Source of the DNA: Apophysomyces variabilis | Lineage: Eukaryota; Mucoromycota; Mucoromycetes; Mucorales; Mucoraceae | Length of the DNA: 64,000 bases | NCBI GenBank assembly: GCA_002749535.1 | Contig: MZZL01000137.1 | Coordinates: 208,345-272,344 of the forward strand | Direction of reading: 5' to 3' | Shown here: in pieces, positions 1,890-60,937 of the stretch | Numbering within the stretch: the first letter of the stretch is position 1 | Layout: every line of letters begins with the position of its first letter | Notes under the pieces: model-generated | Seen by the model: the letters and a program-made list of their open reading frames with translations, nothing else | What the model was told of the DNA's origin: nothing | The model's database searches: none | Program-made: the position numbers and the translations under genes

Positions 1890-4537
1890 ATGCTTCTCTC
1901 TTACTCTATTTGTTCTTTGCTTTTCCTTTTGGCCACCACGCATGCCGAACCGGTGGCCATACTGTCATGGGAGGAAGCTTACAAGAAGGCGGATGCTCTT
2001 GTGAATCAGATGACGCTTGAGCAAAAAGTCGATTTGACAACGGACATTCCTGTTCCTACAGCCAAATGCTTTGGTTCTACAAAAGAAATACAAAACCCTC
2101 ACTTTCCATCACTTTGTCAGGAGGATGCCTCACTCGGTGTTCATTACACGAAAAATGTCAGTGTATTCGTTGCAGGGATTAACGCTGCTGCTACATTCGA
2201 CAGAAAGTTAATGCGGCAACGCGGTGAGCAAGTAGGCGAGGAGTTTCGCCGTAAGGGTGTCAACATACAACTTGGGCCCGTTATGGACATTATGCGGGTT
2301 CCTACAGCCGGCAGAAACTGGGAAGGGTTTGGAGAAGATCCTTATTTATCCGGTGTCGCTGCTGCAGAAACTGTCCAAGGAACTCAAAGTCAGGGTGTGG
2401 TATGTTTGTTATCAAGGGTTTGTTGGAATGATTTAACATGATTGCCGCAGATATGTGTGGCTAAACACTTCATTGGGAATCAACAAGAAACAAATCGCAG
2501 ATTCGTAAGGACAAAGCCGGATTTTTAAACAAGCCATTAAAAGAAAACAAAAAAACCGTAGGCATCAAACAACATCGATGACAGGACATTGCATGAAGTA
2601 TATCTCTGGCCGTTCGCACGCAGTGTCGAAGTTGGTCTAGCGGGAATTATGTGCAGTTACAATAAAGTGAACGGACAGTACGCATGTGAAAATGACAATA
2701 CGCTGAATACAATCCTGAAAGGCGAGCTTGGCTTCAAAGGGTTTGTCATGACAGACTTTTTGGCAGGAGTATCGACAGTTCCATCGGCATTAAACGGTTT
2801 GGATCTGGCCATGCCAGGTATTCATCCTATTAAATAAGAACCTCATTGTAACTATTCGGTGCAAAGGTGGCGTCAGTTTCCTTGTAGTGAATGTTCCGGC
2901 AGTGTATGGAAGAAGTCTACTTAACGCTGTTCGCAGCGGTCAAGTTCCAGAGTCTCGCGTAAGGTTTACTGATTTGAGGTTCTTGCAGTTAATCTTTGAC
3001 CGAAACAATTAGGTTACAGATATGGCACGCCGCATCGTCGCGGCCTGGTACAAGCTTGGGCAAGACAAGGTATGACAGTAAGATTAATCTATTGGAAGCT
3101 AACTTAGCATCATCATTAGGATTATCCTCGCTTGAGTTTCGACGCCTATCGACGTGATAGAGATGAAGCTATTAATGTTCAAGGCGACCACAAGTATCTG
3201 ATTCGTGAAATAGGTGCTGCCTCGGTTATCCTTTTGAGAAATAGAAATAATATACTGCCTCTACAAGACACAACAGCCAAAATCGCATTGATAGGAAGTG
3301 ATGCTGGGCCAGACCCAGAGTAAGGGAATTGACTTTTAACTTGAACTGGTCTGCTGAAAATTTTTTCTCTTGTATAGTGGACCTAACTTTTGCTTTGACC
3401 ATGCTTGTGATCGTGGTACGCTTGCTCAAGGATGGGGAACAGGAACTGCCGATTATCCTTATCTGATCACTGTAAGAGTGTGTTGGTAAACTAAGAACTT
3501 ATAACAAACGCTCTCTCTGTTGCAGCCTTACGAAGGAATCCAAGCTCGTGTTTCAAACAGCACAAATATTCTATTTAGCTTAGATAATTGGGATCTGCAA
3601 GAAGCTACAAGAACAGCACGCGGTGCTAATGTAGCCATTGTATTTGCGACCGCTGACAGCGGGGAAGATTATTTACTTGTTGACAACAACATAGGCGATA
3701 GGAAAAACATGTCATTATGGAATAACGGCGATAATCTGGTACTGTATATATGCTAATATTTTTTCCCAATTTCCTTGCATTTCCTAACATGAACTGTAGA
3801 TCAAAGCAGTTGCCGATGCCAATGAAAATACTATCGTTGTTATCCATTCTGTTGGTCCTGTGTTGATGCCTTGGATAGACCATCCAAACATCAAGGCTAT
3901 TGTATGGCCAGGTTTACCAGGTCAAGAGTCAGGAAATGCTCTTGCTGATGTTTTGTTTGGCGATGTAAACCCATCCGGACGATTACCTTTCACACTCGCA
4001 AAGGCGGAAAGCGACTATCCTGCAAGGCTCCGATACTCGTTTATTGTAAATAACATAAAAATCCTCGTTCAATCATGTGCTAACCTGCAGAAATAGAACG
4101 AGTACAAGGAAAAACTACTTGTTGGTTATCGTTGGTTTGACGCAATGAATATTGAACCACATTTTGAGTTCGGCTTTGGCTTGTCCTATACCAAATTTGA
4201 GTATGAAGGTCTTTCGCTCGAGGTTGGTGGACACAAAGTGAACGCTTCTATATCTGTGATGAATGTTGGCGATCGAGACGGTGCTGAAGTCGTTCAAGCT
4301 TATCTCTCATTCCCAGATTACGTTGGAGAGCCTCCAAAAATCTTGCGTGGGTTCGAAAGGGTCTTTGTGAAAGTAGGAGACAAGGTCAACGTGAGCTTCC
4401 AGTTCGGCGAAACTGAGCTCAGCTACTGGAATACTGATAGCAAAACTTGGGTCATTCCCAAAGGCAGATTTGTACTTCATATCGGTGCCAGCAGTCGCGA
4501 TATTCGCATGACAACCAAGTTTGATATTACTGACTGA
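1890..4537 (+). CDS. Secreted GH3 beta-glucosidase
   Basis: Retaining exo-acting beta-glucosidase of glycoside hydrolase family 3, which removes terminal beta-D-glucose from cello-oligosaccharides or other beta-glucans outside the cell. The ATG at 1890 gives a hydrophobic signal peptide ending in a THA|EP-type cleavage site; the frame is open further upstream but without another ATG. About eight exons separated by short introns. Seen in order: N-terminal barrel with GPVMDIMRVPTAGRNWEGFGEDP, the AKHFIGNQQETNR substrate-binding block, MCSYNKVNG, then GFVMTDFLAG where the Asp is the expected nucleophile (family motif SDW); the alpha/beta sandwich domain with GANVAIVFA and the WPGLPGQESG block; and a C-terminal fibronectin-III-like domain (FEFGFGLSYTKFEY) ending at 4537. 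The splice joining the nucleophile exon to the next (near 2817-2895) is the least certain. Substrate specificity cannot be read from sequence. Confidence 0.9.
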
Positions 4538-18191: not shown

Positions 18192-18708
18192 AGCTAGATT
18201 TGGTTCTCAGGAAACAGCGAGCTGTAATTTTTTGGCATAGAAAAATTATGTCTGCCCGGTTTTGCTGTTATAGGAAGGCAAGCTATCACTATGCATCCTC
18301 ACTCCAACATCTACCGCTTATTGAATGCAAATCATATTCAATTAGACAGCTGTAGTTTCTCAAGGAGAACCAACGTTCCAGAATGCTGAATAAATAAACA
18401 ACCATTCAACATCAGCGCTGTTCACTAACACATCTAACTATGTTGCGTTGAGCACTTATTTGCCTTGTTATAATATACTTTAAGCCAAATCAAACCATGA
18501 TTTATAGGTTTGCTGCGCCATTCTCGAATTTTCTTTTGAATGATGAAACGGAACAGTGTAACACCATGTTGGCCGTGCTTTCAATTGTGGTTGCTATAGC
18601 TACCGTATAGAACGTTTTTCCTCCGTCAAGGTTTATCTCGTGTAACGCGATCTATTGGTCCCTTTAACCTATATAAAGGATCCAATTCTGAAGTTTTTTG
18701 CTATAACA
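18192..18708. other. Divergent promoter region (WDR83 / F-box)
   Basis: Divergent intergenic region between the WDR83 start (minus) and the F-box gene start (plus). No coding signal. It holds the TATA-like element listed separately. Confidence 0.5.
18672..18677 (+). promoter_or_regulatory. TATA-like box of the F-box gene
   Basis: TATAAA 32 bases before the chosen ATG at 18709. Its position inside the longer open frame that begins at 18655 argues that translation starts at 18709. Functional status is inference. Confidence 0.4.
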
Positions 18709-20472
18709 ATGGACTTCCCCACCGAAATCTTGAACAACATACTCGGTTATTTATCATCATCTGACCTGTACATATGCTTATATTTGCGCCGCTCTTGGAA
18801 ACAGATTGCATGTCTCTTCTTATACGAGAAAATCACTATTTCATCACGTCGTCAGTTCAAACTGCTTTTCCGTACCCTTTCCGAATCGCCAGCAGTAACA
18901 GATACTCCTCTTGGCTACCACGTCCGTGAACTACTGCTTAAGGACACAGTTGGTTTCTCGCGCGAGGAGTTCGAACACCTTCCGAAGCTTTGTCCATTTC
19001 TCGTTGTTCTTGATTTTAATCAAAAACTTTGGAGGCATCTACGCTACACAGAGGAACTTGCAAGCTGGAAAGCTCTTCAGCGTTTGACACAGCCGCCAGA
19101 AGATCTTGGAAATTTAAGAAGATCACTACTTTCAGTGTTTCCACCGTCTTTTACCAAGAAGACAATCAACGTAGAGAAACCAACATGGCCCAGTCAATTG
19201 GACGATGAAACGTATCTAAACAACTTAACAATAGCAGCATTCTCCTTTTCTGAACAAACTCCATTTTCAATAATTGAGGAAATTCATGCAAGGCTACCCT
19301 CTTTGCATCGCCTTTCAATATCGGACGCGCCTATCCTCACGTACGACAGCCTGACAGACATAGTTCCCTGCAAAGCTCTGCGTACCCTAAAAATCGCGGT
19401 ACAATGCGGAAATCTGCACATGTGGGCTCGCTATATTGCGCATAAATATCCTTGTTTAGAAAAGCTGACCATATTATACATTGGTGTTACATCAGAACTC
19501 TCTGATGTGTTATATAGAGAGACCAACGCGGCTTTCCTCTTGTTGGCGAGATCTTGTCACTGCCTACATACTCTAAAGCTTCTGGACATATTTTTATACG
19601 GTTGTCCTTCGCTTCAATACGACTTGCCGTTTGAGGATTTCGTAAAGAATCTATACGAAGTAGGTGGTAGGCTGCGCAAGCTAAAGATCCCTTGCCAAAA
19701 CACAGGATGGTATCAGCCGCAATCGCTTTGCAAGTGTATCAGCTATCTGCAAGGAACACTGACAGAAATTGTGATTGAAATTAATGATGAGTCGTTTGAA
19801 TCAACACCAGACATTCTTAAGGCACTGCGAGCTTGCGAAAGCCTTATTCAGCTGAAAATGACAGGGTTTGGTGACGACGAGCATTACACATTCAACATCG
19901 GCGATGTAACGAAGTTCTGGCCGCGGTTAAAGGTCTTGGAATTGTTTCTGGTTGATATCATCATGCCCAATGCTGGTATCCAACCGAATAGCACGTCTCA
20001 TGGATTAAAGTCCCTCCGACTCTGGCAAGCACGCGTGCAGAGAGAGTTTTTCCTTTATATATCAAGAGCTTTCCCTGAACTTTCCGACGTCCAATTTATG
20101 GATTGCACAGACGGGTTTGCTCACTGCGATCAACGGGAAATAGTGGTGGATATGGGTGAATTGAGGCTTCAAAGATTGGATATAACAAGTAGAATTGGCG
20201 AATTTGGCGCACTGAAACTGACGCAAACTGGCAAAAAGACAAGGCCTCTGAAGCGGCGAGAGAAATTGTGTACAGCAGCAGAGAACCAGGAATCGTTCCA
20301 GTGGTCAAGATGGTATTGCACTGAAAGCGAACCTAAACGTGCTTATATACGACGTCTACGGCGTTTATCAAAGAAAATCATACAAGATGTACAGCAAAAT
20401 GAGCGTTATATATCAGTCTACTGCCATTCCTTAGATAATTTGGAACTTGAACTACGACGAACTAAGACGTAG
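18709..20472 (+). CDS. F-box protein with LRR-like C-terminal region
   Basis: Probable substrate receptor of an SCF (Skp1-cullin-F-box) ubiquitin ligase. Single exon of 587 residues from ATG 18709; the frame is open from 18655, but the later Met begins directly with the F-box (MDFPTEILNNILGYLSSSDL), which sits at the very N-terminus in this family. After it come degenerate leucine-rich elements (LPSLHRLSISDAP, CKALRTLKIAVQC, CHCLHTLKLLDIF, WPRLKVLELFLVDI). The C-terminus is basic. Such F-box/LRR genes are strongly expanded and fast-evolving in Mucoromycota, so orthology and target are unknown. Confidence 0.85.
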   Translation: MDFPTEILNNILGYLSSSDLYICLYLRRSWKQIACLFLYEKITISSRRQFKLLFRTLSESPAVTDTPLGYHVRELLLKDTVGFSREEFEHLPKLCPFLVVLDFNQKLWRHLRYTEELASWKALQRLTQPPEDLGNLRRSLLSVFPPSFTKKTINVEKPTWPSQLDDETYLNNLTIAAFSFSEQTPFSIIEEIHARLPSLHRLSISDAPILTYDSLTDIVPCKALRTLKIAVQCGNLHMWARYIAHKYPCLEKLTILYIGVTSELSDVLYRETNAAFLLLARSCHCLHTLKLLDIFLYGCPSLQYDLPFEDFVKNLYEVGGRLRKLKIPCQNTGWYQPQSLCKCISYLQGTLTEIVIEINDESFESTPDILKALRACESLIQLKMTGFGDDEHYTFNIGDVTKFWPRLKVLELFLVDIIMPNAGIQPNSTSHGLKSLRLWQARVQREFFLYISRAFPELSDVQFMDCTDGFAHCDQREIVVDMGELRLQRLDITSRIGEFGALKLTQTGKKTRPLKRREKLCTAAENQESFQWSRWYCTESEPKRAYIRRLRRLSKKIIQDVQQNERYISVYCHSLDNLELELRRTKT

Positions 20473-22014
20473 TGCCAAAATGCCCACACAGAAGGTCAAA
20501 GATAAACAACGTTCATAAAAATTTTAGAATAGCCATATCTCTGAGGCAGTTTTGATTTAGCCATTGTCTCCAGCGTTTGCTTGTAGTTTGCAAAGGCGAA
20601 ATCGCTTTCAAATAAATACCTTGTTGCTGCTTTACTACTTGTGCTAATCCAGCCGATATCGTTTTATGCTCCATTAATGATCAATTTTTCTGCTTGTTCC
20701 AATGCGATTCATCATTATTTCCGATGCCACTGGTATGTTTGTAGCACCCTAAGCACTCACCCTTTTAAAACCTCGATTTGGCTCTGCTTGCACGCTCCCA
20801 AGTATCTTTTTAACCTTCTTGAGGTAACAGCGATCCCTCGTTAACTCAAGCCCTCAATAACTTCGGATGCATTTCTCAGACCTAAAGAAAAAAGTTAAGG
20901 TAAAGCATGTTTCCCCTTGTTACACAGTCGTATTAGCTATCAATCCCAGCTAGGCCATCTCTTCAAGAACATTACACTCGTAGGAGCAAAAGAACAAAAG
21001 GATAAGCAAAATAAAGAAGCAACAAACAAGGGGACAGACAGAATGGTGATGAACAAAGAGATCCAGTACTTTATTTCCAAAAATTAGTCGCATCTAACAA
21101 ATTTACTTGTCGCATTTTGGAAACTGGACTTGACGCTAACAAAATATTAATTGTCGTGTTATAAGAGTTTGGATTGACAATTTTACGTACCTGTCAGAAA
21201 ACTGAAGACGCCATACCCAGCTACCCCGCCAAGTGAATGCAAGATACATATATAAATTTCAATGTCATTGGCCCGCGACTTTGATCTTCGTAGTTTGTAA
21301 AAATGTTTTTGGGAAATACCGAGTGGGTATTCCCTCAGTCCTGAGACTCAAGCGGAGTGAGATCCAGAGGGAAATCATCTCTTCTGTCGAATTCTGATAG
21401 AATGGACAACAGTAGAGTGATAACCAGGCTAAAATATGGTTGATACTTTAGTACAATACTTGGTATATTCCATATCTGAATAGATATGATAAGAACTACG
21501 ATCGTGAGATAATACAGCAGGGATGAATCAGACAAGTTCATGTGTTAATGATTTGGTAATTATATCTCAGACAGGCACCGGTACTCTAACTCAATGATCT
21601 GAATACAATGTCAGAGTCATGAAGGTTAATCATGGTCTTGAATACCATAACCTGATACTATTAGAAGAAAGTTCGTAGCTGGAGTCGACCAGAGATTAAT
21701 TGTTGGTTCATTTGCAGCTGATCCTACGAATGATTATAACATTTTCTGCTGTCCTGTGCCTTGGCTTTTATGCATTTTCAGTTTCCTCCTCAAATGACTA
21801 TACATAAAAGACCTGAAACTTCTTTGTTCAAATGTTTATCCAGTCAGAGTTGCTCATCTAAAAATAGACTAGTTACAAGATCATCATGCCGAACTGACTT
21901 CACCAATTGACAACTGAAATTGTTACACTGCTCTTTCTCTTATGATAACAATATTTTCGTTGTTTGAGGTGAATTCCCGTTGAATGAGATGTACATAAAC
22001 TGAACTAACAAAAC
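20473..22014. other. 1.5-kb region upstream of the Fanzor gene
   Basis: No gene recognised; short ORFs (20641-20844, 21335-21541) have no conserved features. It holds the 3' flank of the F-box gene and whatever drives the Fanzor. I compared it by eye with the Fanzor 3' flank (26231-26371) and found no convincing terminal inverted repeat or target-site duplication. Confidence 0.45.
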
Positions 22015-25000
22015 ATGTTCCGTTTGTCAGCCATGCAAGTACCGCACCCGCAAATACGAGAAAACAAACGCAAAAGAAAGAGAGTAATTCAATCAAATAT
22101 ATCCTTGGACAAGGCGATTGAAGCCTTGCACGACGTGTTTCAGAACCAGTTAGTTACAATCATTTCAAAAGAACTTGAGGATAAACCAAGGAAAAACACG
22201 GCAAAGAAAGCGAGATTTCAGTCAGAAGTTGAAAAACAAGCAAAAACCAACAAAATCCTGCAAGAGCTACGAACGCGTTTAGAGAAAGCGGATCGTGTCC
22301 CAAGAACTTCACTCGAGCAAGCCGATGACTCAATAAATGTAACACGGGGAACGATTCGTAGAACCCTCTGTTTTCACTATCCTGAGCCAGCATCAATCGG
22401 CAAGCTTTGGAGAGATTACGCTGCAGCTCATTTCAATGACGCCGTGGCGGAAGCACGGGCGAGACTTGAGGAGCACGGAGAAGTAGAAGAAGCTGGTTCC
22501 AGCAAAGAAGTTACTGTGAATGACGACAGTAAAGAGGAAAAAGAAATAATACGAACATGTTCCGTTAGATTATCAAAAATCTTACGAGAAGACCTTGACA
22601 ATCAAGTGAAGCAGACATTTCTTGAGACCATTGCTATCACATCCGAACAGGCCACCAACTACGCTTCTGAGCTGGGAACCGCAGTACATGCAACCATGCT
22701 CAAGTACGCATCCGGCTCGGTAGTCTTGGATGCAGAGTCAAAGCAAGCGCACTATCAACAAGATGGCAAGACATTTAATGTTTTGGATGTCATACATGAA
22801 GAGTGGATTCGACATCCAGAATTTTTGAACTCAGAATTGGCAATAGCTGTGGCCCCAATGCCTGATAACATCAAGAATTATGTAAAAGCTTTGTCGAAAA
22901 AACACAATGACGAATTCCTAAACCTCTTTACCGAAGCACATCTACAGTTCCTTCATTCAGACTATTTTGGAAGACAAAGCTACAAAGCTCAAGGAAAATC
23001 TTTCTGGTCTTCCTTACAGCACCAAGGCTTGAAGGACTTGCCAAAACCACCTGCAGGCTTAAGCACCGTCATGCACTTCCAGTTGAAGCAGTATGCCACA
23101 GACCTGCAGAACATGTGGGCAGGCGGATTATTCCACAAATCAATTAATCACTTGCTTCGTATCCTGCTCAGGATCAATCTTGCCTCTGAACGAGAAAAGA
23201 AGATTCAGGAAATTACCGAGAAAAAACTACAAGAAAAGGAAAAGCAGCGGGAAGAGAGCTCCAGAACGATGCGGAGAAAAAAAGAATGGCGCAGACGCAA
23301 GATAAAAGGTAGACTAAAACAAGAACGCAAAAGTTTGCGACGGCTGGAGAAGCGCTTGGGAATAGAAATGGATGGGAATCAAAGAGCCAATCTTTTGCAG
23401 CGGAAGAAGTCATGCGTCGAAGCAATCAGACGACTGGAGAAACAGGCAAAGGAAAAGTACAGGCCTAAAAAGGCTGATAACCAGCCACATCAAAAAGATG
23501 AAGAGGTGAGAATTACTTGTCATAACGTTGATATATGAGCTGAACAAACGTCAATTAGGCAAGAGGCGATATGGACAAGTTAGCTATTTCAGCCGATATC
23601 AGTGTCATGGATGATGAAGGAATCGAAGAGACGATAGAAACAGCGATCGAAGAGGCACAGGACGAGTTGGAAGAAGTTGAGATAAAGACACTGAAGAAAG
23701 AACCCAGCAGAAGAAGGTTGATAAGAATCCAAGCTATCACCAAGAAACTACTGCTGTCAACAGACATCGACGGGAACGTACAAGCTAGTGATGTGTCGGA
23801 TATATGGAACGACAACGATGAGCTCCAGAAGGTCGAGATAGATATCGTCGTGAAACTTGCAAACGCACTTAGACCATACGTGCCGAAAGGTCGATTAAGC
23901 AGCGCAATATCTCTTCGTTTGCGATTTGTTTTGTTATCAAATGCGATTCTTCATGCGACAGGATATTCCAAGTTCACTGCAAATATCTGCCCAACTATCA
24001 GCCCTGCCTCAATCCATGCTCTACCTCTCGATGCGGCGTCCATGTATGAGATGTTTGGTTCCAATTCTGCAAAGTTCAATCTATACAAAGAAGATGGAAG
24101 CACAATCGACAATATCAGAGAAGCTCGTACGAACAAATCTGCTGTGATTGGTTCCTTCTTTGATCAAGAAAAAGTTAAGCATATTTGCAATACTCGAGGT
24201 TTGGAACCGCGGTGGCGAATCACCATTACACCTCATCAAATGGCCGTGATTGACGGTGATGTAAAAAAAGGGAGGGTTATAGATACTTCTCACTACGAAG
24301 AAAGAAAGAAAAAGTCGAAAGGAAAGCGTGCAGATAGCGCAAGTAGTCAATTTGAAGATAAATCCGGCTTAGACATCGCCAATATTACATGCTCATTAGA
24401 AGATGCAAAACAGAGGGTGAAAGCTCTGGAGTCGGCTGAAAAGCAGATAAAAAACGCGTTGCGGCAGAGGGAGGAAGTCGTCGAAAGCCGAATGGAGAGT
24501 TATCGGAGAAGCAAGGACGTAGCTCGAAGAAAAGTCCGCGATAAGCGTAAGAGTGAGAAATTCGATATCTATGATTCCAGAGCGAAACAGAAACAGACCG
24601 ACATATATAAAGATTTAAAGGCGGCTAAACTCGAGCGCGCAAAGAGCCAATCTGAACTAAGCAAGATAAGGTCACAGCTCGCGGATCAACGAAGACTGCG
24701 ATACATATATCAGAAGGTAAGTGAAGAATATCATATGCATTAGCTAAACAAGAAAATAAACGAAACTATAGCAGCTGGATATTCTGAAGAAGCAACAAAC
24801 GAACAAAGAGACGAAACCAAAAGATGATGAACAAGAACAGGAGACTAAGCTATGTAAAGTTGCGAGTTGGAATCGCCCAGGTTGCGAAGCCAATACAGAG
24901 TTTCTGGACATCTCAGAGCTGCATCAAGAAGTCAAGCAGGATCCCAAGAAGACTATTACTTTTGGCGGAACGGACTATGGCTTGAGGACTTTGGCGACAA

Positions 25001-26230
25001 CGGTGCCGGTCACTATGGAACGCGCTCGTCTACATTTCGACCTGTATAATCGCCAATTTGGTGACGGGCAGACGCCTGTGTCTATTCCTAAAGAAATGTC
25101 TACGCTTCCTAAGCCGATGAGAATCACAGCTGGTTATCTGGAGGAGAAAACCTTATGTAGGAGTTTTCGCAAAAAAAGAGAGAGGAGGAAAAAGGTATGA
25201 TAAAGATAGCCGCTAAGTTTTAGGTTGACTCACTTTGTCTTTAGAATAACCCTGCGGTTATCAGTGCAGAGAAGACGCTATCGAAAAGATCATCCGCCTC
25301 AGCAACCACGGTGGAGCAAGTTTTAGAGTCGCAAGCGGTATTATCCTTCGGCTTCCTTCTGCCTCTAACTCATAATAACATACATGTAGGTAAAGAGGAA
25401 CTGCCGAAGAGAATTGCGAGCTTTCTATCATTCGAATCGGGCAGAGCATGAAAAGCGCACACAAAAACTGTATACGGATCGCATCTATGATCAAGTGGCC
25501 GCCCAAGAGCGCAAGTTTATTAAGGCTGCAGCGACGACACAGACCGATGGGCGCCAAAAGGCTTTACCGATTATGGCCATCGGCACTCAAGGAACTGGAG
25601 TCGGTCTACGTCTGAAAGGACATTTAAAACGAGGGGGAAAATGGCTCCGTAAACGTCATCGCCGATATGTGCCTGTATCCATGACCAATGAACACAGAAG
25701 TTCCCAGTTATGCGTCTACTGTTTTGAACGAGTTGAACGAGCTAAAGCACGGCGAAGAAAGAGCAGACAGTGGAAGACTGTGAGAGTAAACGGTGCCTCA
25801 CAATGCGTAAACCCCTGCTGTCCGGCGTACCAGTCCGGCCATGCCACGCAAAACAGAGATGTTCAAGCGGCTGTAGCAATAGGTCTGGCATCTGCCAGTA
25901 ACATCCTATCAGCAAACAGAAGCACGTTGACCCCATTTGACCCCAGCATATTCTCGGCTGGAAAACCGTTTGTTCCCGGCGCCACCAATTTTTGGTAAGT
26001 CGGCTTCTATCAAATAATTATTGCGTATTCATCATGTGTCCTGACGTTAAAGGTGCGTGAATTCTTCTCGGAAGCTCTGTGAAGAGTAAGTAGTAGTTCT
26101 GCCCTTGCGATAATAGTTCTTATGACAATGAAGGTTGAGAGAACCGGGACCTGTCGCTATGACAGGAGTTATCAGGACCTATGCCTCAGGTAAGAGAAAC
26201 AGGTACTCTGAGACTGAGAAACAATTTTAA
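22015..26230 (+). CDS. Fanzor: eukaryotic TnpB-like RNA-guided nuclease
   Basis: Seven exons by reading frame and GT-AG sites: 22015-23505, 23559-24716, 24772-25194, 25245-25337, 25390-25994, 26053-26085, 26134-26230. They sum to 3,900 bases (1,299 residues) with no stop or frame break. Residues about 1-880 are basic and helix-rich, with an NLS-like Lys/Arg run at 18-23 and a long charged coil just before the nuclease. The RuvC-like domain follows: TFGGTDYGLRTLATTV with Asp near 951 (RuvC-I); VSMTNEHRSSQLCVYC with Glu near 1156, in the alternative RuvC-II position described for Fanzors; a zinc ribbon with Cys near 1163/1166 and 1194/1198; and QNRDVQAAVAIG with Asp near 1212 (RuvC-III). Fanzors are homologues of IS200/605 and IS607 TnpB that cut DNA guided by an omega-RNA. 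Length is far above typical TnpB (about 400). Activity is inferred from intact motifs, and no transposase partner lies next to it. Confidence 0.82.
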
Positions 26231-26371
26231 CGCTTTATTTGAGTCACAGAGGAGTTTTAGAGTTCAGATACCGTATGAGATTTTTCTTTTACAAAGAGAC
26301 ATGTCTATCTGTCTTAGCAGGCTTATAGAACGAAAAGTAAAGACGAGCATTTAGTTTAACTTTGATGTTGA
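26231..26371. other. Gap between convergent Fanzor and ABC transporter genes
   Basis: Only 141 bases separate the two stops. By analogy with known Fanzors and TnpBs, a guide RNA could start in the 3' end of the coding region and run into this gap, but I see no diagnostic structure by eye. Confidence 0.35.
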
Positions 26372-29300
26372 TTAGAAGGTAGTTTTACTCTTGCTTTTCT
26401 TCTTTTTCTTCTTATTTCTCGATGAAGTCTGAGATGGTTTCTTTGTTGCTGACGACTGCTCAGCCTGAGGTCCTGCTTCTTCTGCAGCCTCTATTAATGG
26501 TTGGTCGATTGCTTGTTGGGATTTCTCTACCAAATCTGCTGATGGCACCTCCGCTACTTCTGTGGGCGAACTCACCAGCTGTGTAGATTCTCCCGGAATA
26601 TTCGTGTCGATCTTAGGAACAAGTTTTTTCTCTGCTTTGTCTTCTCCTGTTTCATCAGAGCTTTGACTAGGCACAGCCTGAGTCTCTACTTCTTCACGTA
26701 CGACGTTATTGTGAAAACTCTCTGAAACTTCTTCGATAGCCGTATCGTTCTCATCACGAAGCTGTTTCTGCCACATTTCATAATACACACCTGTAACCAA
26801 TTTTAAAAACAATACCGTTTTGTTTGTTTTTTACCTTGTTGACCGTTCTCTACAGCTTGTTTGATTAATTCATCATGACTTCCGGATTCGACTACTTTTC
26901 CATCCTTGATACTAGAAGTAAGAAGAAACGAATCAGCCTTTTGCTTTATAACACTTGTGATACGCACACTAAAATCTTGTCGGCATTTACAATAGTAGAT
27001 AATCGATGCGCAATCACAAGAGTGGTGCGATCTTTCGTCATCTCAGATAAAGCTTGCTGAATGTGCCGTTCAGTCGTGCTGCTTTTCGAATGAGTACAGC
27101 AAGCTCTAAAAATGCATGTACTTACGTATCCAGCGCACTGGTCGCCTCGTCCAACAGAATAATTGGTGGGTCCTTCAGCATCGTTCTCGCAATGGCCACG
27201 CGTTGCTGGAGTAAATGTCAGTTTAAACTACAACCCTTATGATCTATTTACCTTTTCGCCTCCACTCAGACGAAGACCACGTTCGCCCACTTTCGTGTCG
27301 TAACCTATAATTTAACTTGTTAACGAATTGTAGTTGTAAATGTTAATTACCCTCTGGGAAAGATAAAATTTTCTCATGAATTTGAGCTGCTTTAGCTGCA
27401 CGGAAGACAGCATCATCATCAGCGTCTACATTTCCATACCGAATATTGTATAAAATAGTGTCGTTAAAAAGTACAGTGTCTTGTGGAACTACACCGATAT
27501 TTTTGCGCAACGATGCTTGGCGGACCTGTCGGATATCTTGTCCATCGATGTAAATATGACCGCTCAATGGGTCGTAAAATCGGAAAAGTAGCCGCATAAT
27601 TGTTGATTTGCTTTGAACCATGTTACTTTTGCCAACCATAACGTCAAATCACTTACCCTCCTCCAGAAGGTCCTACTAAAGCAACCGTGGAACCCTTAGC
27701 AATACTGAAAGATATGTTACTTAATGCTGTTTGACGATGATCATAAGCAAACGTGACATTATCTATATAAACACGAGTGATAAATACATGTTTCGGCGGA
27801 CAATCCTCTTACCAAAAACAATATGGCCCTGCTTAACGGTCAGGTCCTTTGCGTCCGGATGATCTTTGACCGATTGCTGTTCCTCAAATAGTGCCAGCAT
27901 TTTTTCCATATCGATAAAGTTTGCTTGAATCATACGGTAATAAGTCCCGAACCAATGAAGCTTTCAGAAGCCCTTATGAGTAAAGTTCAATGGTATGCCC
28001 GAACTTACCGGTGTGTAAAGTTGCATTAAATACATAACAAACGTAACAAAGTCACCGGCTTTCATACGCCCTTCCGATACCTCATATGCAGCCAATAAAC
28101 AACCAACAAGCAATCCTCCAGACATAACACCATTCTGAGCCAGGTTGAGGAGATTCAACGAAACCGAACTCTTCCAATCTGCGACCTGATATTCTAAGAC
28201 TGCGTTCTTATATCGGTTGATTTCAAATCCTTCAGCACCATAATATTTCACGGTCTCGAAGTTCAAAAGAGAGTCCACGGCTTTGGTACGAGCAAAGTTG
28301 TCCAGGTCGATCATGCGACGTCTAAACTTGGTACGCCACTCAGTCATTGCAATGGTAACGAAAAGATAGAACGCCATTGTCACAAAAACGATGAATCCAA
28401 ACACTGGTGAAAATGCAATGGTGAAGTATACAACGGCCACCAAAATCTGAGCTATCGCAGGAAATATCTGAAACAGAATCTGGGATAACAACTGGACGAT
28501 GCTACTCGTTCCTCGGTCCATGACCCGAAGAACTTCACCTGTCTTGCGATTGATATGGAAATCAAGTGATAAACCGTGAAGATGAGCAAACATTTTGACT
28601 GAGATCTCTCGAGTAGTGTATTGACCGATGGGGATCCATAACCAGTTTTGCACCGTTTGGATGAGACCCGACTACAGAAAGCTATTAAAAGCAACATCTC
28701 CTTACACAATATGCTTACCCCTCCCTGCAGGAATCGTAAACCAACATACACTAGCACTGCTGCCCATGCAAACTTTCCTGTTGACAACTTGTCAGAGATC
28801 TGTATTTATTTATCTTACTGAAATTACCTGTGCCTTCACCCATATTGTTCACAATGACACCAATCTGATTAGGTAGCGCTACACTTACGACCAAACCGAG
28901 AAGCATAAGTGCAAAACAAAGAATGACATAAACCTGTAGCTGTAAGGACTTCTTTGGCCAGATGTAAGGTAAAAGCTTTCTCATCTTGCCAAAAAAGTTT
29001 GCAAAGGCACTTGGTTCTTTTTCGCGGGATGTCTCACAAGAAGCATCAGTTGGTGGTACCGAACCATACGAGCTTCTTGGCTCTGATGTAAGAAGCGGTG
29101 TAGCATCTTCGGATGACGACGAAAATATATGCACAATAGACAAAACGACAACGGATACTTCGAAGATGAAACGTATAACAAAGAAGGCAAGTAGGGTGTG
29201 ATCATAGCTGGTAAATAATGTGTCTGTGCTTGGGAAATTAGATAGATCACACTAATTAAGTCATCGCAGCCCTTTACCTGGATTCGCACGGTAAATGCCC

Positions 29301-58267: not shown

Positions 58268-60180
58268 GAGTGAGAAAGCGGAAAGGAAAGGAGCCTTGTC
58301 GTTTTTAAGATTTCTTTTTCTAGTTGCTTGTGACCTGCTGACTCCTTGTATTCAACTTTTTGAGTTTAACTTTTTTGGAACTAGACAAAAAGGGCCTGCA
58401 GTCAAGGTTTGAATATGTGGACTTCATCTATTTGCAGTTTGCTACTCAAAGAAAAGCGAAGGAAGCTGTATTCTGTTGAACTCAAAGAAGAAAAAGCGCA
58501 AGATTGCAATCATATTAATCCTTTCAACGAGTGGAAAGGAACAAAGCAACCGCTGCATGCACCAGATTTGAGATATATGCCCAATGCGTAACACAGTTGA
58601 ATCAAGCCCGTCTTGATTATTGGAAGCCAGTTGCCGCCATATCCTCCGCTTCAGGCCGCACTCGTTTTTCCACACATCGCGTCTTGTATTGCATGGTGCC
58701 TAAGAATACGAAAATTCGTCCAGTATATGCATCGAAAAATCCATGCAACGATAGACGCGTATCTGGACGCCATAATCAAATCATTCCATTACTCTGCAAG
58801 CCAAATCACCCATTAAGCTTAGTTGACTGTTCCGATGGTTAGATTACTAGTAGCGCTAGTAAACCCACTCATAGAATCTAGAGCTACAGTGGTTTTTGCT
58901 GACAAGATTGGTCAGCATTATAACCTTTCTATTAGAGAGGGTTAACTTAATGTTATCCGTAAAGCAAAATAGGAGTTATACGACATGTAAGTCTAGCACG
59001 TAAATATTTCTTAGTTGCGTTTCCAGACATTGCGGGACAGCAAGTGTCGGCAAGTATAGACTGGGTTCAGTGCGTGCACAGACAGTGTAAGCGGCGTCCT
59101 GCAGGATAAGGTTCATACAACAAACAATTTTACTGATTCTTCTGTTTATGTAGAGCAATAATTCTTCTTGTTATTTACGTCATTTTCTTATTAAGCTTAA
59201 ATGACATCTAGGGTTGAAAAGGCACTGATCGATCGAAAAAGGGAAAGAATGGCCCCAAAAACTGTTGCATGTTTTTTCCCGGTTTTCTTATTATTTTCTC
59301 TGCATGCGAAGACATGGTAAGTTTGTAATGGAAATTGCAAACAATTCAAGCTAAAATAGAAAGTATATCTAAGCATGTGTAAGAGCTAGTTTGCTCCTTG
59401 TACCGGTGCGATTTGTATCGTTACTTTCGGTGATCTGGATTGGTGCATGGCTGCAGTAAGGCATGATTGAGTTGGGTATGCCATTCTAAACTAAGTTTCC
59501 TGTGTGTTTGGTAGTTTATTGGTTTGGACTTTTACCCTCTAATGGTTTAGTTATGGACTACACTACTTTTTGTGGGGTTAGGCCGTCGATCGACTAAACA
59601 CGCATTGCTTATTGTGGTCCTCGGTATCGTACAAGAGCGCAAAGGCAATATCAACTGCTGCAACGTTTCGTGTAAAGCTCCTTGGACGTTGGAGCTGTCA
59701 AATATGCTCTCTCTTGGAAAGGAACACTGACCACTCATTGATGTGACTTCCTTGTTCTCATGAGAGTACCACTGATAATGATGTTTTTGGCAGTATAAAG
59801 GGATTTAAGCTTTATTCAGCTCTATCTGCGTGTTACTATTTCTGTTTTGAAGCAGTTATAAATACGCCATATGTTTGTCCATAAAATGACAGGCTATATT
59901 ACCCATTGCTTTTCATTGTGCTATACTAAATGTTCGAAATCTGGAACTAGCAAAGATAGTTTTCAAATATTGCCGGTACTAAAGCTTGTACGGTGTGATA
60001 TACTGACATTTTATGCATCCATCAATCATTACTACGTTAGGGAACATAGCGAAAGATACTCTGGAAAAAATAAAGGTTAACGTTGATATTTACGCAAGCA
60101 TGGTTAAGTTTATTATTCCGTGCTGTTTATGTCCAACTTTGGGGCACAACTTTTTTTTAAAATGTACAAAAAAATCGTTT
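58268..60180. other. Gene-poor region between bHLH gene and tRNA
   Basis: About 1.9 kb. A plus-strand open stretch around 58590-58816 encodes a partly hydrophobic peptide (QLPPYPPLQAALVFPHIASC) but begins without ATG, and its upstream exons could not be identified; I do not call it a gene. Other ORFs (58976-59158, 59547-59738, 59871-60080) show nothing. No repeats recognised. Confidence 0.4.
60168..60174 (-). terminator. Pol III T-run terminator of tRNA-Glu
   Basis: Seven A on the plus strand (seven T on the tRNA strand), six bases past the tRNA 3' end; the standard RNA polymerase III stop signal. Confidence 0.75.
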
Positions 60181-60252
60181 TTCCCCAGCGGGGAATCGAA
60201 CCCCGGCCGTCGGTGTGAGAGACCGAAATCCTGACCACTGGACCACTGAGGA
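60181..60252 (-). tRNA. tRNA-Glu (anticodon CTC)
   Basis: Seventy-two-base cloverleaf on the minus strand. The acceptor stem TCCTCAG pairs with CTGGGGA (one G-T wobble). D arm GTCC/GGAT with loop AGTGGTCA; anticodon stem TCGGT/ACCGA with loop CTCTCAC, so the anticodon is CTC; T arm CGGGG/CCCCG with TTCGATT. The internal A and B boxes (TGGTCCAGTGG and GGTTCGATTCC) are intact. No intron. The sequence follows eukaryotic tRNA-Glu closely. Confidence 0.95.
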
Positions 60253-60937
60253 AGCTATATTATAGCACAAGGTGTCATACTTTTTCTGGCCTTACCACCC
60301 GAGTAAATGCAACATGGAAAGAATGAAAAGATGGAGCCTTTGGGAGTAAGAATGGTGGAAAGTTTGTCTTGCTCTTCAAGAAGTACATGGCTAGGTACAC
60401 TACACGTTGGCTTAGGTGTGCGACCTTTGCTCTTGGTTTGGTGCACACCTGCCTTGTATGTACACAACTCCTACAGACCTGGTTGGTACACCACAAGCAA
60501 TTGTTTGTACACGCACATCCGTCTCAGATGTAAATGGTCATTTGGTGTAACTTGGAAAACACGACTGAATCCTTCCTTCCATTCTTTTCCAGTGATCGCA
60601 TGCCTTTTTCTAACCTATGTCCTTAGCATTTACCTCCATTTTGTATAATTTTAATTTTAAGTTAGTTTTAGTGAATTTCCCTCTTTGGTTGAATAGTTTT
60701 AGAAGAAATAAAGACACTGGGGAGGAAAAAAAAACCCTCTTTTTTGCAAAATAAGAAGAAAAGAAATCTCCTTGGCGGAACCTTTTGTACCTAAAGAGCT
60801 GGAACCATATTGTACTTGCAAACATCTTTTCTGGATATAGTAAATTTGAAGTGTCTTTAAGATTGCTTTTGAGAAAGGATCTAAGAAACTCATCTTTACT
60901 GCTAAGATCATTTAAAGTGATATTGTTTATTTGGTGA
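60253..60937. other. Intergenic between tRNA and first MITE
   Basis: No gene recognised. A 113-codon plus frame at 60307-60648 and overlapping minus frames have no conserved features. The plus strand at 60410-60530 repeats short GTGTAC/GTACAC-like words (TTGTACACGC, TGTACACAAC, GGTACACCAC), giving local symmetry that may be remnant repeat DNA. Confidence 0.35.

Follow-up and report, generated by a model that had tools for sequence, protein, structure and literature searches.

The locus at 22015-26230 of a 64,000-nucleotide stretch of the Apophysomyces variabilis genome (the window; all features described here lie on its plus strand) raises the question of whether a gene for a Fanzor, a eukaryotic RNA-guided nuclease, stands there as a host gene or travels with a mobile element. 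An earlier note, made from the sequence alone, had placed the gene by itself between housekeeping genes, a description that misses a young element with twelve copies and many relatives. A block of ~4.96 kb (21314-26273) occurs in 12 copies in the 38.7 Mb genome; across it, the 11 other copies are 99.80-99.98% identical to the window copy (one of them, L012, aligns from 21347 only), and their flanks are unrelated. These near-identical copies identify the object as a transposon rather than a solitary gene, and a lone host gene is thereby ruled out. The common block 21314..26273 was taken as the whole mobile element (model boundaries 21321-26272), and it is recently multiplied. The Fanzor-like gene is its sole recognisable gene and is thus encoded by a transposable element with distinct flanks at each copy. 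Genome searches with exon 5 and exon 1 gave 126 and 82 matches, respectively, and the same genome harbors, in addition to this family (family 1), family 2 with 15 copies and family 3 with about ten. Seven of 11 relics are internally deleted with the right end kept. A search of viral contigs gave 30 pattern matches, of which none was confirmed.

A former Fanzor element might still have turned into a host gene at this particular locus, as the window copy is intact and lies with an F-box-like gene on one side and a gene for an ABC transporter on the other. However, 11 other copies in different flanks are almost identical to it, it has only one private residue and is otherwise without any special feature relative to the others, and we consider such a conversion extremely improbable. 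Taken together, the window element probably belongs to a young transposon, present in 12 intact copies, that carries a giant, divergent Fanzor1-type nuclease gene.

The seven-exon frame of 1,299 residues proposed previously stood in its main part. Five frames between 22015 and 25998 are joined through four GT-AG introns, all of phase 0, into 1,257 aa and a stop: exon 1 (22015..23505, 497 aa), exon 2 (23559..24716, 386 aa), exon 3 (24772..25194, 141 aa), exon 4 (25245..25337, 31 aa) and exon 5 (25390..25998, 202 aa and TAA). This frame and the same four introns are retained in 12 of 12 genomic copies, and the gene is intact, as the note had supposed. The public model EC973_007782 (P0001, Apophysomyces ossiformis, 1,285 aa) has identical joins and starts at the second Met (22033); it differs from the window protein by few substitutions, fitting another copy. 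Residues similar to those of exon 4 continue in P0010 (Apophysomyces sp. BC1021). The extra 3' exons appear to be optional. The main frame is closed by TAA at 25996-25998, which sits within a donor GTAAGT. A possible exon 6 (26053..26085), present in P0001, is plausible because family 2 has comparable splice signals at the equivalent positions (a GT donor and an acceptor AG followed by GTGCGT) and because the exact GTAAGT occurs at the equivalent donor place in 5 of 11 relics. Exon 7 (26134-26189) overlaps a conserved hairpin, and its annotated frame is not carried over to family 2; on our reading, the last short exon of P0001 lies at about 26244-26260. Between families 1 and 2, identity at the three codon positions is 0.62/0.75/0.35 in exon 5 (199 codons) and 0.57/0.66/0.32 in exon 2 (355 codons), a pattern indicating that the protein has been under selection.

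Concentrating on the nuclease part, the C-terminal ~340 residues read D...E...C2C...C4C...RD, which bears out the RuvC motifs and zinc ribbon noticed earlier. The RuvC-I motif, GTDYG, lies in exon 3, and the displaced catalytic E, the zinc ribbon and the RuvC-III NRD lie in exon 5. The Fanzor motif given in the portion of Bao and Jurka drawn on here (PMC3627910), D-X(125,275)-[TS][TS]XX-[C4 finger]-X(5,50)-RD, is found in the window protein with a D-to-SS gap of 207, the finger CVYC...CVNPCC and 11 residues to RD; a relative, L039, deviates from it (IS, RE). Yoon et al. 2023 located the RuvC-II glutamate of Fanzors six residues ahead of the zinc finger, and six residues separate E from the first C in all five families. 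They also described RuvC-I as near exclusively DPG; the window protein and four of the five families have DYG, with DPG in family 3 only. As this signature is near-exclusive rather than absolute, the window protein was called a variant.

Profile searches gave a divided answer. As a single sequence, the whole protein had one Pfam match (DUF2963, E=0.012, under the cut-off), none to a nuclease, and one PDB match, to an unrelated sensor (E=0.059). Its C-terminal piece matched TNB (PF07282) at the right place but below the cut-off (E=3.5, 8.3 bits), and the TNB match of family 3 (E=3.3e-5) reached 24.4 bits against a Pfam cut-off of 26.3. By contrast, a profile of four related families from A. ossiformis and P0009 (A5), searched against the PDB, found SpuFz1 first (E=5.4e-6) and PpFz1 second (E=0.086), followed by an unrelated entry (0.56); the same two Fanzors were the top matches of another profile, in which PpFz1 had E=0.0034. 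Similarity to known Fanzors is therefore seen with the A5 profile and not with the single sequence. The earlier note had itself named a profile search as the check on its assignment, to be given up if no significant TnpB/Fanzor match appeared; that is the outcome for the single sequence, whereas the profile of related families does find Fanzors. We regard the protein as Fanzor-type and a probable RNA-guided nuclease, with support that comes only through its relatives. The element would broaden the sequence space of Fanzor1 (DYG, about 1,250 aa, under the Pfam threshold).

The right end of the element is a candidate scaffold of an ωRNA, for which the statistics are mixed. Its element-derived terminus, CAGATACC (26265..26272), is present in 12 of 12 copies, the next letter being G in 11 and A in one, and the right flank differs copy by copy. 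A conserved hairpin, CCTGTC-GCTAT-GACAGG (26150..26166), may form part of the ωRNA. It shows two double-sided changes relative to family 2 with pairing kept, both from a single family 2 row; sliding it by +2 gives a covariation of 0.136 vs 0.103, yet with 45.5% of cells paired. A terminal stem ending at the right junction (26202..26272) is a candidate 3' scaffold: 12 of 500 shuffles equal the fold of the element's final 84 nt, z is -2.21, and families 1 and 2 both have terminal stems at this place, the family 2 stem being a different one. Family 3, which folds worse than 443 of 500 shuffles, and most relics, which mostly fold otherwise, are without it. The whole 276-nt right end folds no better than shuffles (49/200), the covariation term of RNAalifold is unfavourable (+0.92), and an Rfam search of the right end returned nothing. 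The right ends of families 1 and 2 are alike (score 52 vs 37 for the best of 200 shuffles), and comparisons with family 3, L039 and L040 fell within the shuffle range. In deleted copies, a 45-nt conservation peak is mild (17/2000 permutations; 16/2000 in blocks). Genome-wide, GTCGCTATGAC occurs 50 times vs 8 for a reversed control. Of these, 37 are at Fanzor loci (12 in family 1, 15 in family 2, 8 in relics and 2 others, at C94:1833157 beside a further family and at C112:47634 downstream of a family 2-like exon 1), and the remaining 13 lie elsewhere, near chance.

On the left, the copies are inserted 3' of AAATACC (21314..21320), a target-derived motif and predicted TAM, present as such in 10 of 12 copies and as AAACACC in L009 and AATTACC in L019. 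Just inside lies GGGTATT (21325..21331), which in family 1 repeats the ATACC motif imperfectly in inverted orientation; family 2 has GGGTATAAC in this position. The left motif and a fixed right end are present in both families. Similarity between left and right ends is no better than shuffles in family 1 (108 and 93 of 300) and weak in family 2 (direct, 4/300 shuffles as good; inverted, 21/300). No long TIR was found, and the TIRs and 9-bp duplications of MuDR-type Fanzor1 elements are absent. Constant, short direct repeats flank the element without TIRs, as in MCi-5 of Mucor, and would suit cut-and-paste of the DDE type with duplication of a specific target sequence, the mechanism proposed for MCi-5. 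However, the left and right repeats are unequal in L009, L013 and L019 of family 1 and in L021, L022, L024 and L027 of family 2, and this already weakened explanation is unlikely. To judge from their letters, no plain target duplication accounts for the junctions. A search with 12 joined flanks, in which 40 of 150 candidates were scored, found no empty site spanning a junction; the flanks matched their own halves 24 times, the left flank of L013 matched a repeat 16 times, and that of L009 had one partial match.

In four of four cases (L009, L024, L025 and L026), altered left-end letters match the right-flank letter at that place, although this was read after the fact. Such letters would be expected if a Crypton- or DIRS-like tyrosine recombinase recombined a circular form at a short core, so that the left side kept target letters and the right side those of the element. 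The direct repeats of ~5 bp, with the right copy element-fixed, point the same way, as do the ends of family 2, which if joined would read GTTATAC-TATTAGG-GTATAAC, with inverted arms around a 7-bp spacer, and a partial Crypton transposase in one Fanzor1 family of Mucor mentioned by Bao and Jurka (PMC3627910). Against this, family 1 has only imperfect arms, and the element has no recognised recombinase, Pfam searches of exons 1 and 2 and the full protein giving no Crypton match. Elsewhere in the genome PF00589 has 18 matches, of which eight were fetched and represent two families. The two members translated are, by eye, what we take to be DIRS retrotransposons, which also tells against a tyrosine recombinase, a reading we hold as possible but tentative. 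A PF12012 search was uninformative, as all controls were silent. A serine recombinase partner, as for IS607-type Fanzor2, was rejected: PF00239 had no match in the genome, and a control search was positive in 10 of 14 genomes.

Helitron/HUH-type mobilisation in trans was also considered, as Fanzor1-bearing Helitron2 elements are described in Chlamydomonas (PMC3627910). The right-end hairpin and insertion on the 3' side of a fixed motif, with no plain duplication, resemble it, and Helitron_like_N has 28 matches in the genome. Nevertheless, the element ends lack the T or TC start and the CTRR finish, and the letters varying within the left end fit a clean HUH joint poorly; among Helitron2 features (hairpins at both ends, asymmetric TIRs, 5' T), the right-end stem is present and the left end is not T. 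Such mobilisation is rather doubtful.

No transposase was recognised inside the element or adjoining it, in agreement with the earlier note on the gene's neighbourhood. Our best reading is a non-autonomous Fanzor transposon whose predicted ωRNA would target its own empty sites; the RNA, the cleavage and the mobilising enzyme are what we infer. The right end would be transcribed into an ωRNA with a scaffold ending at the junction and a guide of flanking DNA; following the TnpB/Fanzor layout, the predicted guide of the window copy is 26273..26293, the end being chosen for illustration. The Fanzor complex would recognise and cleave an empty site (TAM AAATACC and then flank) on a homologous or sister chromosome, and repair would copy the element back. 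The occupied site might be spared, as its left motif is followed by element DNA rather than the guide target and its right end presents CAGATACC instead of AAATACC. Strand transfer would be performed by an enzyme that most likely acts in trans and is recombinase-like, which we propose because insertion is sequence-specific without plain duplication. Alternatively, the giant Fanzor might be its own mobilising enzyme, its N-terminal part of ~880 residues (exons 1-2) carrying out sequence-specific strand exchange in a one-protein transposon that moves and polices empty sites with a guide RNA. This part is conserved along its length between families; neither exon has a Pfam domain, and these exons and the upstream frames of families 2 and 3 gave nothing above the Pfam cut-off. 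We give this only a slim chance.

The many intact copies of the element provide a natural test of what Fanzors do for their transposons. Since each of the 12, in 12 different flanks, yields a prediction of its own guide and of a TAM common to all, expression, cleavage and copy-back are directly testable.

The view that such nucleases are sparsely sampled was half right, as Fanzor1 families in Mucor, Rhizopus and Phycomyces were listed in 2013; the statements on them here follow the parts of Bao and Jurka (PMC3627910) consulted. The Mucorales elements MCi-2, MCi-5, MCi-4, ROr-4 and PBl-3 are likewise multi-copy and carry a Fanzor1 protein, but in other species and with other repeats (ATAATTNNNN(N), ATTTAT), being set apart by description, not by sequence. 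MCi-2 and MCi-5 (the latter with ATTTAT duplications) have short constant flanking repeats without TIRs, like the window element. Unlike it, MCi-2A and MCi-5 include transposase genes or parts of them, and MCi-4, ROr-4 and PBl-3 show TIRs of the MuDR type together with 9-bp duplications. SpuFz1 of Spizellomyces punctatus (8gkh), whose match to the family profile covers the RuvC/zinc part, is element-borne, with deleted 'ghost' ωRNA loci reported and a TAM, CATA, that differs from the predicted AAATACC (both in the part of PMC10432273 used); SPu-1, in contrast to the window element, has 33-bp TIRs, a TA duplication and a 633-aa protein (PMC3627910). PpFz1 of Parasitella parasitica (9cf0), a Mucorales Fanzor1, has the TAM ATN, again unlike the predicted AAATACC, and a RuvC insertion domain according to the part of PMC11423790 used. 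Compared to TnpB of IS200/IS605 and IS607, the window element has a displaced glutamate, eukaryotic introns, no TnpA and no serine recombinase in the genome; it nevertheless shares the RuvC-I of the D-hydrophobic-G type and the layout of a specific left motif, a nuclease gene and a putatively structured right end.

The object in the window (G000:C29:208345-272344, from a genome of 38.7 Mb on 126 contigs) is a real, recently mobile Fanzor-type transposon. Exon 5 of its gene, used as a query against the genome, gave 126 matches, 12 of them (the window's own included) full-length at 100%, and exon 1 recovered those same 12 loci. Aligned as DNA against each of the 11 other copies, the window copy shares a single block, 21314-26273, at 99.80-99.98% identity and with unrelated flanks; in copy L012 the block begins at 21347 and the left-end detail differs. 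The earlier note had described a lone gene, which was mistaken given 12 near-identical copies in unrelated flanks, and this multiplicity makes the element more useful than was then supposed. Copies L012, L016 and L017 lack 7-13 bp inside the left terminal ~40 bp and are otherwise almost identical, so this stretch would seem to be dispensable or unstable.

The five main exons of the Fanzor-like gene (22015-23505, 23559-24716, 24772-25194, 25245-25337 and 25390-25998) translate into 1,257 aa. This frame and its four GT-AG introns are kept in 12/12 copies, with coding parts 0-6 nt away from that of the window. At residue 270 (gene 22015-25998), phenylalanine is found in the window copy only and leucine in the other 11/11. 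Searched among the 8000 candidates sharing most words, the full protein had a sole match, P0001 (hypothetical protein EC973_007782 of the Mucorales fungus Apophysomyces ossiformis), with identical joins and a longer tail, and the C-terminal region as a query found no protein other than itself among 6201 candidates. A profile search (A1) found nine proteins: three further ones from A. ossiformis, one each from Apophysomyces sp. BC1015 and BC1021, and four others. To the left of the element lies an F-box-like frame (18646-20472; E=6.4e-4, below cut-off), and to the right lie minus-strand ABC-transporter frames (26372-29251), with 99 bp between the element and the end of the closest open frame; a tRNA-Glu (ctc) occupies 60180-60253 on the minus strand.

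Related families are also present. Family 2 (9/15 copies fetched) shares a block of about 6.6 kb and has 58% identity to family 1, that of the window, in the RuvC part; agreement between the two at codon positions 1/2/3 is 0.62/0.75/0.35 (exon 5) and 0.57/0.66/0.32 (exon 2). In the family 2 copy L028, about 540 bp of unmatched sequence (about 984-1523) stands where the family otherwise has about 600 bp of 5' region. Family 3, from which two of roughly ten copies were fetched, is about 5.6 kb long and more distant. Its copy L037 carries a 217-aa frame (2388-3038) upstream of the nuclease part; this had no Pfam match and by eye presumably resembles a cysteine-protease-like domain.

The window protein is Fanzor-like, a link made at the sequence level through its relatives. 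Against Pfam, the full protein matched DUF2963 alone (E=0.012, below cut-off), and its C-terminal piece matched the TNB domain at the correct place with E=3.5; against the PDB, the full protein gave an unrelated match only (E=0.059). Family 3 reached E=3.3e-5 for TNB, still below the curated cut-off, and 0.0043 for the Spizellomyces punctatus structure SpuFz1. A five-family profile retrieved SpuFz1 (5.8e-7), the Parasitella parasitica structure PpFz1 (0.0034) and then Cas12f (0.55); a control profile lacking family 3 retrieved SpuFz1 (5.4e-6), PpFz1 (0.086) and next an unrelated entry (0.56). The window protein has the Bao-Jurka motif and a glutamate six residues before the zinc finger, matching the description by Yoon et al. 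As a point against it, one further related family, L039, has RE where RD is expected. The Fanzor identity originally proposed is upheld by relatives' profiles and by motifs, although the single protein has no nuclease profile match.

The left flank of family 1 reads AAATACC in 10/12 copies (AAACACC in L009, AATTACC in L019), while the right end reads CAGATACC in 12/12, the next letter being G in 11 copies and A in L013. Family 2 shows GTACT (7/9) or TCACT (2/9) on the left and TTATACT on the right in every copy where this was seen (8 of 9). The right end is constant and the left end variable; therefore, the right repeat is element-derived and the left repeat target-derived. In four copies (L009, L024, L025 and L026), the unusual left-end letters after the core equal the right-flank letter at the equivalent place (4/4, a post hoc observation), which would fit the exchange of a short overlap as heteroduplex. 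L020, L021 and L027 carry the usual left form next to a deviating right flank, so the repeats are not a plain target duplication. In family 3, the two copies examined are bordered on each side by CGGTAT, the reverse complement of ATACCG, and no long TIR was found in these elements. Beside the L013 insertion, 52 bp of left flank recur at at least 16 places among scored matches (90-94% identity), the matches ending at the junction or just short of it.

The last 276 bp of the element recur at 11 further places with 71-85% identity. In seven of these relics (L041-L045, L047 and L048), about 22186-22189 is joined to 25691-25714, the two pieces abutting or lying no more than about 20 nt apart, which marks these relics as an old internally deleted derivative; L049, L050 and L051 retain larger stretches of coding sequence, and L046 is a shorter copy. 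A right-end hairpin, CCTGTC-GCTAT-GACAGG, is conserved, and in family 2 (TCCGTC-GCTAT-GACGGA) two double-sided changes preserve pairing. Across the 11 sequences aligned, pairing holds in 92.4% of 66 cells, and the covariation score was reached by 13/500 shuffles, but both double changes come from the single family 2 row; sliding the hairpin by +2 raised covariation and halved pairing. The last 84 nt form different stems in families 1 and 2, each ending at the junction (12/500 shuffles each); family 3 has no such stem (443/500), and the relics mostly fold otherwise. The whole 276-nt right end folded no better than shuffles (49/200), and the covariation term of the relics' consensus fold was unfavourable. 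A candidate ωRNA likely lies at about 26150-26272.

By analogy with TnpB/Fanzor systems, as described in PMC10432273 and PMC10711439, the Fanzor complex would be guided by the flank, recognise AAATACC as its TAM and cut the empty site, with repair restoring the element. AAATACC and the right junction CAGATACC have ATACC in common but diverge immediately before it, and the ends of family 2 show a like difference (GTACT vs ATACT); on this prediction, such a difference could spare occupied sites from cutting. As regards mobilising enzymes, the genome contains 28 matches to Helitron domains and no match to a serine recombinase. Two families of near-identical elements (L029-L036), each combining a tyrosine-recombinase frame with another long frame, look DIRS-like by eye.

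Among the literature matches listed (20 of 442 in a broader search, 40 of 82 for Fanzor alone), none gave an account of the window element; survey supplements, in which the protein may be listed, lay outside the search. The word Apophysomyces was absent among the Fanzor matches listed (best 10 of 12), and Fanzor combined with Mucoromycota and transposable element gave no match. Bao and Jurka 2013 (PMC3627910) describes Fanzor1 in Mucor, Rhizopus and Phycomyces; some of these elements lack TIRs, and one Mucor family carries part of a Crypton transposase. The deleted derivatives recall the 'ghost' ωRNA loci described by Saito et al. (PMC10432273). A point against the Fanzor assignment is that RuvC-I, near-exclusively DPG in Fanzors according to PMC10711439, is mostly (4/5) DYG in the families here.
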